DNA from: Halopelagius inordinatus | GTDB taxonomy: Archaea; Halobacteriota; Halobacteria; Halobacteriales; Haloferacaceae | DNA: 64,000 nucleotides | Assembly (NCBI RefSeq): GCF_900113245.1 | Contig: NZ_FOOQ01000009.1 | Coordinates: 1 to 64,000 of the forward strand | Direction of reading: 5' to 3' | Shown: in pieces, positions 16,957-58,766 of the stretch | Layout: each line of letters opens with the position of its first letter | How positions within the stretch are numbered: position 1 is the first letter of the stretch | Made by a program: the position numbers and the translations under genes | Notes under the pieces: generated by a model | Databases searched by the model: none | Seen by the model: only the letters and a program-made list of their open reading frames with translations | What the model was told of the DNA's origin: nothing

Positions 16957-18465
16957 TCAGGCGTCTCGCGGGCGGATGTCGTTCAGGTCGCCGGGGTCGG
17001 GTCCGTTGACGATGACGACGCGGGTTCCATCGCGCGTCACGCGGAACGCGTCTTCGAACTCGCCGTCGGGGACGACGTACGTGTTCTCGCCGCGTTCCGT
17101 CGCGTCGTGCGCGGACAGCATGTTCCGATACGCGTTCTGGAACTGCCGCGCGTCGGCTTCGGAGTCCCACTCGGTCACCCAGACGTAGCCGAACTCGCGC
17201 GCGTCACCAGACTGCGTCTGGTTGCCCGCCGAGTTTTGCTCGGCGGCGTCGCCGGAGCCCTTCTTGTACGGGAACAGGCGGTCGTTGCCCCACCCGTTCG
17301 ACGGTTTCGCGTCGTAGTTGTACGTGTCGTATCGGCTGTCGGGCTGAAAGAGGCCCCGCGGGTTGACTGTGTCTGCGCCGGTAGTTCGGGCCTGATACCA
17401 GAACATGGAGAAGATAGACGCCTCCCCGACGGTGTCTGACCCGTCTTGGCCCTGACTCTCGAACGTCGACCAGCCGTTTCGGCCTCGGTCTCTGAACGCT
17501 ATCGGCACCGGTTCGTCGTCCGTCCCGTGGATGACCTGTTCGGTGGACTCCGGCGGGTTCTCTAACTGGTCGTCCACCGCCTCCCACCCGCCGCTTTGGT
17601 AGTGTTCGGAGATGAACACCGGACCGTCGGAGTAGGGTTGGAAGATGGTGAGGAAGATACCGTAGTTCCGTCCGTCCGAGGAGGACGACTCGGACGATTG
17701 GCCCCGTTGCGGCGCGGGGACGCAACTCCACTCGCCCTCGCACATCTCGTCGTAGCGGAGTTCGACGTACTTCGCGTCACCTTCGACGGCACCGTCTACG
17801 GCCAAGTCGCCGTCTTGGGTCTCCCCGGAGTACTTCCGTTTCGTCAGGTCGTAATGCTGGTCCTGAAGCGCGTGCACGAGTTCGTGAACGAGCGTCGCGT
17901 TGTTTATCGTCGGCGAGTCCGGAGAGTTCGTGATTATCTTTATCTGGTCGTCGCGGGGCGAGTAAAAGCCCGCGACGGCGGAGTCGCGCGTACCGCTGAT
18001 GGTCGATTGACTGTCCTCCGTCTCACCGGTGATAAAGAGCGCCTCCCACACCTGGTTGTTCCACTGGTCGAACTCGCTCGGACCGGACGACGACGACGGC
18101 GTGCCGGTAGAGCGGTTTCGGTACGCCGCCCGCGAGAGCGATTCGACCGACACGCGTTCTCGGAACTCCTTGTGTCGGATGTACTCGACGCGGGCCATCG
18201 CCCGGCCGACGAACGCCCGGAGTTCGGTGTCGGAGAGTCCGTCGGATTGGTCGACGTCTATCGGTTCGTCGTACCAGTAGCCGTCCTCCCACCCGAGAAC
18301 GTCCGTCTCTGGGTCCGAGAAGTTCTCGCCCGGCGTCGCGGGCGTCGGTGCGTCGGAGCCTGAGTCGTCGGCGTCGGCGTTCGGGTTCGTCGCGGGCGCG
18401 GCACAGCCAGCGGAGACGAGCAGCAAAGCGAGGGCCGCGGCGACGAGCCCGTGGCGCGGTGGCAT
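16957..18465 (-). CDS. Hvo_1808-like surface lipoprotein, paralogue of the downstream copy
   Basis: This 502-residue lipoprotein uses the ATG at 18465; the frame continues upstream but would add an implausible 14-residue tail. The signal ends in SAGC (Cys21). The mature protein shares the GWEDGYWYDEPIDVDQSDGL segment and the HELVHALQ motif (NNATLVHELVHALQ) with its downstream neighbour, and also the C-terminal FRVTRDGTRVVIVNGPDPG block. It is 50 residues longer, with an added Ser/Gln-rich stretch. Together with the metzincin-like lipoprotein and the small lipoprotein it forms a four-gene set of exported proteins. The exact substrate is unknown. Confidence 0.75.
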   Translation of the reverse strand: MPPRHGLVAAALALLLVSAGCAAPATNPNADADDSGSDAPTPATPGENFSDPETDVLGWEDGYWYDEPIDVDQSDGLSDTELRAFVGRAMARVEYIRHKEFRERVSVESLSRAAYRNRSTGTPSSSSGPSEFDQWNNQVWEALFITGETEDSQSTISGTRDSAVAGFYSPRDDQIKIITNSPDSPTINNATLVHELVHALQDQHYDLTKRKYSGETQDGDLAVDGAVEGDAKYVELRYDEMCEGEWSCVPAPQRGQSSESSSSDGRNYGIFLTIFQPYSDGPVFISEHYQSGGWEAVDDQLENPPESTEQVIHGTDDEPVPIAFRDRGRNGWSTFESQGQDGSDTVGEASIFSMFWYQARTTGADTVNPRGLFQPDSRYDTYNYDAKPSNGWGNDRLFPYKKGSGDAAEQNSAGNQTQSGDAREFGYVWVTEWDSEADARQFQNAYRNMLSAHDATERGENTYVVPDGEFEDAFRVTRDGTRVVIVNGPDPGDLNDIRPRDA

Positions 18466-18614
18466 TGTACGATTTGACGGCCCGCGGTCTGAAGTAGCTT
18501 TCCGCATCGACTACAGAGGCGGCAGCCCCCGGAGTCGGTGATAGGCGGCGAATCGACCGGTGACCGGTGACCGGTCGCCGTACAGTTTTGTCGAGCGACG
18601 GACAACGTGGTGGT

Positions 18615-23458: not shown

Positions 23459-24226
23459 TCAGTCGTCGCTGGCCGCGTCGTCGTCCGCCAGTTCCTCCTC
23501 GCGCATCTCGGCGCTTGCCTCTCTGACCTCCCGCATGACGCTCGAGATGCGCTCTTCGGCCTCCAGTTCCTCCTCCACGGAGAGGTCGACGCCCTCGACT
23601 TCGAGGAGGAACTTCGCTATCTCGGAGACTTCGTACATCAGTTCGTCGAGTTCCTCGGCCGTGAAGAAGCCGGACATCGCGCCGTAGAGAAACGTCGCGC
23701 CCGACTTTCGGACCTTGTCCTCGAAGGAAGAGCGGGCTTGATTGACCGCCTGCGGGGTGTACGTATCCGTCATGAACGGGACGAGTTCGGGGAGGTTGTC
23801 GCCTATCTTCGTCATCTCGACGCCCGTCTCCGTCCGGAAGTCGGCGCAGAGACGCGCGATGGCCCACTCGCGGGCGGTGACGTACGTCCGGTCGCGGAGG
23901 AACTCGTTGACCCGGTCGTACTCCGCGCCGTCCATCTTCTTGAAGCGCGCGTACTTCTGCACGTCGTCCGGCGGCGCGTCGGCGGCGTCACCGTCGGCAC
24001 TGGCGTCGTTACCGTCCGCGTCGGTCGCTTCGCTCTCGGATTCCGTCACCGCCGAACCGGAATCGCCCGCGTCGGCGGCGTCCGCCGCCCCGTCTTCCTT
24101 CTCGACTCCTCGGTCTCCGGGCTTTCGTTCGTCTGCCGCCGACCGCCCGTCCTCGGACGACTGCGTCCGTCGGGGCGAGGAGGTCCGTTCCTCGCCGTCG
24201 TCGGGCGTCGGGTTCTCGTCGCTCAT
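23459..24226 (-). CDS. Conserved haloarchaeal protein, DUF5806-like
   Basis: This 255-residue protein has a disordered acidic N-terminal third (Asp/Glu/Ser-rich to about residue 90) and a helical core starting near QKYARFKKMDGAEYDRVNEFL. This matches, from memory, the haloarchaeal DUF5806 family. The core includes the segment TPQAVNQARSSFEDKVRKSG, and the tail is again acidic. No catalytic residues are apparent. The start at 24226 was chosen; a longer frame upstream would add a basic, Arg-rich tail overlapping the next gene's promoter. Confidence 0.72.
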   Translation of the reverse strand: MSDENPTPDDGEERTSSPRRTQSSEDGRSAADERKPGDRGVEKEDGAADAADAGDSGSAVTESESEATDADGNDASADGDAADAPPDDVQKYARFKKMDGAEYDRVNEFLRDRTYVTAREWAIARLCADFRTETGVEMTKIGDNLPELVPFMTDTYTPQAVNQARSSFEDKVRKSGATFLYGAMSGFFTAEELDELMYEVSEIAKFLLEVEGVDLSVEEELEAEERISSVMREVREASAEMREEELADDDAASDD

Positions 24227-44330: not shown

Positions 44331-45961
44331 TGGCGGGAGCGACCCGTTCGAGGCTCGTCACGGAGGACACGTCCGCGACCGACGCGGTGGCGGCGGGGGC
44401 CGTCGGACTCGCGTCGGTGCTTTTCGCCCTCGCCCTCGCGGCGCTGTTCGAGCAGGTGAGCCTGACTGACTCTGTCGGTGGGGTCCCCCTCGCCACGCTC
44501 ATCGGCGGACTCCTCGCCCTGTTGGGCGGCGCAGTCATCGCCTTCGGCGTCGGCTCACGGTTCGGCTACGTCGCGACCCAACCGAGGCCGACCGCTGGGA
44601 TAGTCGCCGCTTCGAGTTCCACGCTCGTCTGGTTCGCGGTCGGCGGCGTCGTCGCGTCGCAGTCGTTCGGACTCGGAACTCTCGGGTGGCTCTTCGTCGC
44701 CGGTCTGACCGGCGGCGCGGCCTTCGCGGTGTCGGCGGTCCTGCGGGAAGACCTCGGCTCTACGCTCCCGGCGGGCGCTTTGACCCTGTTTGCGGGGCTC
44801 GTCTTCCTCACCGGGGCCATCGGCCCGTCGTGGGTGTGGGAACTCGGCTGGGCACAGCGGGCGTCGTTCACCGCCGAGTTCGTCGTCCCCGGCGTCACGC
44901 TGTTTTGTTCTCTCTTCTCCGGGTGGGCGGCCGCGAAGGCGTACGGCGGGTTCGGCGCTCGCGGGCGGCACATGGGCGCGTACCTGCTCGTCTACCTGAA
45001 CGCCGTCGCCATCGTCGGCGTCCTGTTCGTGCTGATGGGGTTCACCATCGTCAAGGGGACTCCCGGCCTCTTCCGCGGTCTGAGCGTCGGACTCGGAACC
45101 GGCCCGGAGTCCGTCGTCGTGCTCTTCGGACAGACCGTCTCGTTCACGTGGCCCCTCGACTGGCCGTTCGTCATGAACGGCGTCGGGCTGATAAACGACT
45201 TCAACGGCGTCCTACCGGCCATCGCCGGGACGTTCTGGCTCGTCGCCGGAGCGATGCTCGTCGCGGTTCCCCTCGGCATCGGCGCGGCCATCTTCCTCAC
45301 CGAGTACGCCGAACGAGGGCCGTTCACGCAGGCCGTCGAAGTCGCCACGAACGGGCTCTGGAGCACTCCGAGCATCGTCTTCGGTCTGTTCGGGTACGCG
45401 TTTCTCGTCCCGCGGTTCGGCAACAGGAAGTCGCTGCTCGCCGGGATGCTGACGCTCTCGTTCATGCTTCTTCCTCTCGTGCTCATCACGAGTCGGGAGG
45501 CGATGCTCTCGGTCCCCGACGAGTACCGCGATGCCAGCGCGGCCCTCGGCGTGACCAAGTGGCAGACGATACGAAGCGTCGTCCTGCCCGCGGCGTTACC
45601 CGGTGTCGTCACCGGCGTCATCCTCGGTGTCGGCCGCATCGCGGGCGAGACGGCACCCATCCTGTTGACGATGGCAGGCGGCGTGTTCATCCCCGGAAGC
45701 CAGACGGTGGACGTCGTCGGCGGCTTCGAGTTCACGTCCTCGGCCCCGTTCGTCGCCAATCCCGAACTGATGCAGGCGACGTCCGCGCTCCCGTACCAGT
45801 TGTACGCGCTCATCACCGCGGGCGTCGGCGCGTCGAGCAACGTCGGCAACGCCGACGAGTTCCGCTGGGCGACGGCGCTCATCCTTCTCATCGTCGTTCT
45901 GTCGTTCTACGCGGTCGGCATCACCGCGCGGTACTACTTCCGCAGTAAACTCAGAGAGTAA
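44330..45961 (+). CDS. pstA: Phosphate ABC transporter permease PstA, extended form
   Basis: This 543-residue permease is far longer than typical bacterial PstA (about 280-300). The first roughly 215 residues contain about six extra hydrophobic segments. The core follows, with [16 protein letters not shown], the ABC-coupling loop near [21 protein letters not shown], and [12 protein letters not shown]. It pairs with PstC and PstB. It overlaps the pstC stop by one base. The extra helices are likely a haloarchaeal feature of unknown purpose. Confidence 0.92.
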
Positions 45962-57221: not shown

Positions 57222-58766
57222 ATGGTCGACATCTCGACGGAAGCAGACTGGAACTCACTGTACGTCGACGGAGAGTGGACGGATTCGGCGGGCGAGGAGA
57301 CGATTGCCGACCGAGACCCCTCGACCCGCGAGACGTTCGCGCACGTTCCCGCGGGCGTCGAAGCCGACGTCGACGCCGCCTACGAGTCCGCCGCGGAGGC
57401 GCAAAGAGAGTGGGCGAACGCACCACCGGCGCGTCGCCAACGGGTCGTGCAGGAGGCACTTCGCGTCCTCCAGGAGAACAGCGACGACGTCATCGAACTG
57501 CTGGCGTACGAGGCGGGCGGCACGCGTATCATGGGCGAGACGTCCGTCCAGATCGCATCCGACCACCTCGGGGAGGCGGCGACGCTTCCCGCCCGGATGA
57601 AGGGCGAACACGCCCAGTCGAACGTCCCCGGCAAGGAGAACGTCGTCAAGCGACTCCCGAAGGGCGTCGTCACCTGCATCTCACCGTGGAACTTCCCGCT
57701 GAACCTCTCGATGCGCGCCGTCGCGCCCGCCATCGCCACCGGGAACGCGGTGGTTCTCAAGCCCGCGACGAACACGCCGATCGTAGGCGGTCTCCTCTTG
57801 GCGAAACTGTTCGAGGAGGCGGGCCTCCCCGAAGGCGTCCTGAACGTCGTCACCGGCCGCGGGTCCGAGATCGGCGACGCCGTCGCCGGACACCCCGAGA
57901 GCGATATGGTCGCGTTCACCGGTTCGACGCCCGTCGGCCGGCAGGTGGCCGCCACCGCCGCGGAGAACCTCGCGGTGCAGGCGATGGAACTCGGTGGGAA
58001 CAACCCCCACGTCGTCACCGCGGACGCCGACTTGGACCGCGCGATAGACGGGGCGGTGTTCGGGTCGTTCGTCCACCAAGGGCAGGTGTGCATCTCCATC
58101 AACCGTCACGTGGTTCACGAAGACGTCTACGACGAGTACGTCGAGCGATTGACCGACCGCGCCGAGGAACTACCGGTCGGAAGCGCCCACGACGAGGACG
58201 CCGTCATCGGTCCGATAATCTCCGAGTCCCAACGCGACGAGATGCTCGGCTACGTCGAGGAGACGGTCGAGGCGGGCGCGACGCTCGAAACCGGCGGCGA
58301 AGTCGCGGAACTCGACGGCGTTCACGAATCGCAAAGCGATTCGTTAGCCAGCCAGAAGTCGACGACTTCTGGCGACGTCGAAGACTCCCTCGTCGTCGAA
58401 CCGACGGTGCTCTCTGACGTGACCAACGACATGCCCGCCGCGCGCAACGAACACTTCGGGCCGATCGCGCCCGTCATCCCGTTCTCGGACGTCGAGGAGG
58501 CCATCGAAATCGCAAACGACACCGAGTACGGCCTCTCGGGGTCCGTCCACTCCGGCGACTTCGAGACGGCGATGGACATAGCAGACCGCATGCAGACGGG
58601 CCACGTCCACATCAACGACCAACCGATCAACGACGAGGCGCACATCCCCTTCAGCGGTACCGCCGCCTCCGGGATGGGCGGGTACAACAGCGAGACGATG
58701 CTCCGCGAAGTCACCGAGACGAAGTGGATATCGCACCAGCGAGAGGCGCGCGACTACCCGTTCTGA
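57222..58766 (+). CDS. NAD(P)-dependent aldehyde dehydrogenase with in-frame insert
   Basis: This 514-residue ALDH has Glu256 in MELGGNN and the catalytic Cys290 in HQGQVCISINR, in the expected order with the N-terminal Rossmann region (ISPWNFPLNLSM and AFTGSTPVGR). A segment of about 20 residues (about 368-388, Ser-rich) between ELDG and VVEPTVL is foreign to the family and is encoded by two perfect palindromes. The role is probably oxidation of an aldehyde such as lactaldehyde at the end of deoxy-sugar breakdown. The ATG at 57222 was chosen; the longer upstream frame is not credible. Confidence 0.87.
   Translation: MVDISTEADWNSLYVDGEWTDSAGEETIADRDPSTRETFAHVPAGVEADVDAAYESAAEAQREWANAPPARRQRVVQEALRVLQENSDDVIELLAYEAGGTRIMGETSVQIASDHLGEAATLPARMKGEHAQSNVPGKENVVKRLPKGVVTCISPWNFPLNLSMRAVAPAIATGNAVVLKPATNTPIVGGLLLAKLFEEAGLPEGVLNVVTGRGSEIGDAVAGHPESDMVAFTGSTPVGRQVAATAAENLAVQAMELGGNNPHVVTADADLDRAIDGAVFGSFVHQGQVCISINRHVVHEDVYDEYVERLTDRAEELPVGSAHDEDAVIGPIISESQRDEMLGYVEETVEAGATLETGGEVAELDGVHESQSDSLASQKSTTSGDVEDSLVVEPTVLSDVTNDMPAARNEHFGPIAPVIPFSDVEEAIEIANDTEYGLSGSVHSGDFETAMDIADRMQTGHVHINDQPINDEAHIPFSGTAASGMGGYNSETMLREVTETKWISHQREARDYPF
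58324..58373. repeat. Two adjacent perfect palindromes inside the ALDH gene
   Basis: ACGAATCGC/GCGATTCGT (58324-58332 and 58336-58344, 3-nt loop) and GCCAGAAGTCG/CGACTTCTGGC (58351-58361 and 58363-58373, 1-nt loop). They are separated by 6 nt, and the surrounding insert keeps the reading frame. Confidence 0.9.

Follow-up and report, generated by a model that had tools for sequence, protein, structure and literature searches.

A palindromic insert in a haloarchaeal aldehyde dehydrogenase gene as a probable copy of a dispersed 45-bp double-hairpin element

How did an aldehyde dehydrogenase of Halopelagius inordinatus come to carry, in frame, a segment built of two perfect palindromes? The gene lies in a 64,000-nucleotide stretch of DNA (contig NZ_FOOQ01000009.1, positions 1 to 64,000), here called the window. 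The original prediction, made from the letters alone, described about 20 codons alien to aldehyde dehydrogenases, likened them to the in-frame palindromic elements of Rickettsia and proposed a small mobile palindromic element. The locus comprises the following features.

57222..58766, + strand: host gene, aldehyde dehydrogenase, 514 aa (Pfam PF00171, E 9e-160; alignment)
58317..58319, + strand: left target codon GGC (of GGC^GTC), from the empty-site comparison
58320..58376, - strand: inserted element, 57 bp, long form of a 45-bp unit, absent from homologues and empty in Haloprofundus marisrubri L065
58324..58344, - strand: hairpin 2, 9-bp perfect arms ACGAATCGC/GCGATTCGT, loop AAA (TTT on the - strand)
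58351..58373, - strand: hairpin 1, 11-bp perfect arms GCCAGAAGTCG/CGACTTCTGGC, 1-nt centre A (3-nt loop in the fold)
58377..58379, + strand: right target codon GTC, from the empty-site comparison

Both palindromes were confirmed, as was the preserved frame; the size was refined to exactly 19 codons (57 nt, 58320-58376), with a junction placement uncertain by 2 bp. The insert corresponds to residues 367-385, flanked by ..ATLETGGEVAELDG and VEDSLVVEPTVL, and reads VHESQSDSLASQKSTTSGD in the direction of the gene and GTCGCCAGAAGTCGTCGACTTCTGGCTGGCTAACGAATCGCTTTGCGATTCGTGAAC on the - strand. It is indeed alien to this protein family: all ~47 alignable haloarchaeal homologues lack it, reading ..GG-x-DG^VEDSLVV.., and the Haloprofundus marisrubri homologue (78% identity) shows the empty site GAC GGT^GTC GAA GAC. 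As single-stranded DNA the region folds at -22.6 kcal/mol, compared to -11.1 +/- 2.0 in shuffles (z -5.7), with a short closing stem carrying two hairpins. The two palindromes are two hairpins of one element, not two elements.

Does this element have relatives? The exact palindromes occur only once in the 3.53-Mb genome, and the search for further exact copies, proposed along with the prediction, came back empty. This single occurrence, together with the position of the loop at a length-variable place in the alignment, would suit a quasi-palindrome that arose by chance in a variable loop and belongs to no family. However, an exact-copy search would look negative in any case, because the family appears only when the core bases are allowed to vary with pairing kept. 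The outer 6 bp of hairpin 1, GCCAGA/TCTGGC, are common to other family copies, and a search for GCCAGA..TCTGGC returned more copies with different stem cores that are still perfect palindromes. With a covariance model built from six related copies, each exactly 49 nt with flanks, the H. inordinatus genome yielded 50 non-redundant copies (E<=1e-4), nearly all of them 49 model positions long. The expected other copies thus exist as relatives with altered stem cores, not as exact repeats. Covariance-model E-values are rough and could be inflated by haloarchaeal codon bias, and a separate scan by structure alone was therefore performed. It found 7 double hairpins in 464 kb, compared to 0-2 (order-1), 0-1 (order-3) and 0-1 (codon-shuffled) in controls, and by sequence each of the 7 belongs to the family. 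The sample includes a few stretches picked for holding a copy and gives no unbiased density. Genome counts throughout derive from model searches and sampled stretches. The copies found by the model, their range, the 45-bp empty sites, the structure scan and the covariation described below all oppose a chance origin, to which we give practically no credence as long as the aldehyde dehydrogenase copy belongs to the family. Plain hairpin abundance was likewise rejected as an explanation: perfect hairpins with stems of 9 or more number 61 in 400 kb, against 32 in a shuffle, and most of them are unrelated to the family. The best match to the element in Rfam 15 was sbcD, at 19.4 bits against a cut-off of 40.

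Most copies are exactly 45 bp (15 codons), with the consensus GTC GCC RGAC NNN GTCYGGC GGS C GMCGARC NNN GYTCGKC GAC. The unit consists of GTC, a hairpin, a GGC-type linker, a second hairpin and GAC; its two stems are 7-8 bp long with 3-nt loops, the hairpins face each other, and the ends are inverted (GTCGCC..GGCGAC). Copies also stand in tandem at an exact 45-bp period (C1:50490/50537, C2:448241/448286, and arrays in L317 and L318). Copies that lie outside any open frame (C1:50490, 50537) have this length as well, arguing that 45 bp is intrinsic to the unit and does not stem only from frame selection. The window contains a second copy in this canonical form:

17203..17247, + strand: second copy, canonical 45 bp (model match 17202-17250, E 7e-15)

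It sits in an ORF (16960-18510, - strand) of unassigned function that encodes ..DAAEQNSAGNQTQSGDA.. and has no Pfam match. Two weak model matches also lie in the window, at 24151-24199 (E 0.01) and 45841-45876 (E 6.9, chance level).

The aldehyde dehydrogenase insert is a lengthened, 57-bp form of the 45-bp unit. Lengthening adds 6 nt per hairpin, and both hairpins are lengthened in this copy and in the first copy of a shikimate kinase gene of the archaeal type (TIGR01920). Closest to the insert within this genome is the latter copy (73% over 63 nt, E 0.001), which directly adjoins a canonical copy, placing two adjacent double hairpins near the gene end. The 45-bp covariance model does not match the insert at E<=10, since its longer stems leave it unscored. 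Its putative family membership rests on architecture, target, orientation and nearest relative: ends, GCCAGA/TCTGGC arms, target, orientation and codon phase all match those of the family, and the length is 45+12.

Pairing within the stems is conserved while the sequence is not. Across an alignment of 47 copies drawn from many genomes, pairing holds in 96% of cells, and all 16 pairs change on both sides; these copies came from a pairing-rewarding score, and the choice biases the percentage upward but has far less effect on the diversity of pair types. Double-change cells number 116; shuffles give 28 +/- 4 and slid controls no more than 19. G-T intermediates are rare (about 10/752 cells). Compensatory changes are also found within insertions shared between genomes: at pair 8-18, L159 has G-C and L280 of the sister species G007 has A-T, and at pair 5-21, L197 has A-T and L279 has G-C. 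This indicates that the stems are kept up after insertion, through either selection or hairpin-templated correction.

Most copies lie in frame within genes, in unrelated proteins, a point that the original prediction had put up for checking. About 45 of 52 scored copies (the aldehyde dehydrogenase insert and the matches at E<=1e-4) fall in frames open through the element, frames having been assigned by a purpose-made codon-usage score that leaves a few cases ambiguous. Among the hosts are shikimate kinase, PurF, ArgG, FtsY, NrdR, MatE, a histidine kinase, a helicase, an aminotransferase and an amylase, and the copies often occupy termini or linkers. The codon phase is GTC|GCC in 41/45 open-frame copies. 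We rejected this phase as proof of selection, since GRCGYC in genes has the same phase in 1235 of 1545 cases (80%), a share from which 41/45 is not clearly different (p 0.06); the target's own phase explains the bias, and selection need not be invoked. Orientation is a different matter, because the target is palindromic and leaves the bias unexplained: open-frame copies are divided 35:6 (p 5e-6), and all 17 inspected open-frame copies of other genomes, some in tandem arrays, have the major orientation. The major orientation encodes hydrophilic peptides such as DVAERSSAARRTQSGDV, and the minor one the more basic, hydrophobic DVARRSLAGRRGSLVDA, which would be consistent with counter-selection against the minor-orientation peptide.

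Could the peptide itself be the unit that spreads, as a linker of the DVAERSSAARRTQSGDV type multiplied by duplication or recombination for its usefulness? The dominance of one peptide frame and the tandem 45-bp units in histidine kinase N-box regions speak for such a module, but some copies have the opposite orientation or other frames, contain stop codons or lie outside genes, and covariation of DNA stems is not required of a peptide module. We regard this origin as very unlikely. In the histidine kinases concerned, one to several 45-bp units stand in tandem at the N-box motif NAVEHG, with VEHG repeated (L318 1283-1466 in G013; L317 1333-1515 in G028; L142, own C4:164442), and one of the hairpins seems to be made up of native codons.

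Comparison of collinear sequences (84-88% identity) with the sister species G007, the sole other genome of the genus compared, revealed empty sites. At five of five H. inordinatus sites with a readable junction, the sister species lacks exactly 45 bp by alignment:

C1:396033, in a MatE transporter gene
C1:405675
C1:410418, in a membrane protein gene
C1:599360, in an aminotransferase gene
C1:605593, a more degenerate copy

Other copies are shared: the one at C1:638095 is present in both species, as are two further copies of the sister species. Of the low-scoring matches, C1:594946 aligns through without a gap and C1:601827 shows no clear insertion, indicating that weak model matches include false ones. 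No target-site duplication is consistent across the compared junctions (those with the sister species and that with H. marisrubri L065), which argues against a miniature inverted-repeat transposable element (MITE) derived from a DDE transposon; judging from the junctions, the unit enters at GRC^GYC or nearby. The C1:410418 copy (L235 16419-16467) brings an in-frame TAG into a membrane protein gene and appears to cut it, whereas the sister species has the gene intact (L270, a frame of about 235 aa). The proposal of a small mobile palindromic element thus gains support from the family and from clean 45-bp presence/absence between two species; it is from this pattern that we infer mobility, and the same pattern can also be loss.

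We therefore consider the insert to be, quite probably, a member of a haloarchaeal family of dispersed, palindromic mobile elements, non-coding in origin and canonically 45 bp long, inserted at GRC^GYC without target duplication and presumably moved by an enzyme in trans. The copies lie typically between Asp/Gly and Val/Ala codons, show no target-site duplication in the readable junctions, and add ~15 codons in frame, because it measures 45 bp (plus 6 per lengthened stem) and its target lies mostly in one codon phase. Such additions would be tolerated at a loop, linker or terminus of the protein. The unit may move as single-stranded DNA whose hairpins are recognised by the enzyme, and perfect pairing in its stems may afterwards be preserved either through correction templated by the hairpin or because the hairpin is under selection.

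How widespread is the family? Within Haloferacaceae, copies were found in 116/119 genomes and 28/28 genera (model, E<=0.01). Among 295 genomes of the phylum, 43 are positive at E<=1e-4, every one in the order of H. inordinatus, where about four fifths of sampled members carry copies; other orders gave none at this threshold, an imperfect control given that G+C content differs between the groups. Copy number between genomes ranges from 0 to 50 or more. Retention throughout the order, the covariation of all pairs across genomes and the compensatory changes in orthologous copies (pairs 8-18 and 5-21) would all be expected if the units were host-functional sites, such as hairpins for nucleoid, repair or replication proteins or in mRNA, kept and spread by the host and neither selfish nor neutral. 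Against this stand the scattering of copies over unrelated genes with no apparent common position, the vacancy of most tested sites in the sister species and the large differences in copy number, and we hold such a function to be unlikely.

Which enzyme could mobilise the element? In bacteria, REP/REPIN elements are moved by RAYT or another Y1 (IS200/IS605-type) transposase, and the inverted hairpin doublet, the CGTC beside the stem and the lack of target-site duplication fit this model, as does Y1_Tnp (PF01797) in 80/119 genomes of the family Haloferacaceae. Nevertheless, Y1_Tnp had no match in the two genomes of this copy-rich genus or in the well-stocked genomes G035, G046 and G033, and the copies are mostly intragenic. 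Within the reach of the Pfam model, the genus encodes no Y1 transposase today; the transposase may have been lost from the genus long ago. We judge mobilisation by a Y1 enzyme to be distinctly unlikely. Reverse transcriptase was likewise absent from the two genomes of the genus, a search for Y2 transposase gave no match (nor did it in control genomes), and no parent insertion sequence was found for the 45-bp element. Viral contigs contained no match to a strict element pattern, which is weak evidence on a viral vehicle. A recent burst from a master copy left no sign either, as two copies resemble each other no more closely within a genome (69%) than between genomes (70%); transposition is therefore either slow and old or sequence-changing. 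The preferred reading of a mobile family moved in trans might be widened to an order-wide class of 45-bp elements whose length and target make nearly every insertion an in-frame addition of 15 codons, whose enzyme lies outside Y1/RAYT and reverse transcriptase, and whose stems are rewritten in pairs; this we put forward tentatively, as possible but rather doubtful. In one genome (G005, L303-L307), at least 8 identical or near-identical copies lie just 3' of tnpB-like genes, where they are probably passengers in an insertion sequence.

Until now, in-frame palindromic insertions in genes have been regarded as peculiar to Rickettsia and some other bacteria. The haloarchaeal element is best read as an archaeal form of intragenic palindromic repeats that is new and stands outside any named family, as compared with the Rickettsia palindromic elements (RPEs) and CGTC-tagged REPs by their descriptions; in working principle, these two are its nearest counterparts. 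Palindrome-associated transposable elements (PATEs) span hundreds of bp and have IS-derived ends. The literature searched, in which subscription papers are mostly missing, contains no haloarchaeal description of such elements. RPEs (RPE-1 etc.) are about 150 bp long and form several unrelated families in obligate intracellular bacteria (PMC10969869). The original comparison with them holds for the type of insertion, palindromic repeats in frame in unrelated genes that add hydrophilic peptides; by sequence the element would be no RPE, the stem, loop and tail signatures in the descriptions of RPEs and CGTC-REPs setting it apart. Archaeal MITEs, reported in Haloquadratum, Halobacterium and Sulfolobus (PMC10969869), are likewise small, non-autonomous palindromic DNA, whereas the present element is 45 bp long, without target duplication and without a parent IS. 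REPINs share the inverted hairpin doublet as a unit but are extragenic, with 71-110-bp spacing, and tied to RAYT genes (Bertels and Rainey 2011, PMC3116915), whereas the haloarchaeal unit is intragenic (about 45/52 copies in open frames), 45 bp long and found in a genus without RAYT.

In-frame palindromic inserts are widespread in haloarchaea, reaching core genes such as purF, argG, ftsY and nrdR, and closely related species differ site by site. Haloarchaeal genomes would acquire in-frame protein insertions by an apparently undescribed route, and these cultivable, partly genetically tractable archaea offer a system for studying element movement and the rate at which proteins gain loops. For annotators and structural biologists, the family is a warning of alien loops in haloarchaeal proteins.

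CGTC-tagged REPs share the tag and the doubling with the element. These bacterial repeats, which include Rickettsia RPE-4 and RPE-6 and for which only bacteria of five phyla are named (Di Nocera 2013, PMC3733652), have stems of 8-9 bp opening with A-T, loops of 4-5 nt and CCA tails, and are mostly intergenic; they are dispersed, mostly as head-to-head dimers and some in frame in genes, and no dedicated transposase was found for them (PMC3733652). The tag variants TGTC and CCTC are also accepted beside their stems. Nearly all haloarchaeal copies have CGTC or close variants by the stem, at both ends and inverted; the tag is perhaps partly target, because GAC and GTC are common codons and part of the target. 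Head-to-head doubling is also shared, in the two inverted hairpins of each unit and in intergenic dimers. In contrast, haloarchaeal stems open with G-C/C-G, loops are 3 nt, the linker is GGC/TGC, a CCA tail is lacking, and the element is a fixed 45-bp doublet, mostly intragenic and confined to haloarchaea. The intergenic head-to-head dimers of H. inordinatus, at C1:653665-653716 (L114) and C8:19511-19562 (L113), read TCGCCAGA..TCTGGC-6 nt-GCCAGA..TCTGGCGA and lie near other hairpins; they are perhaps terminators, and perhaps also the form nearest the bacterial REP doublet.
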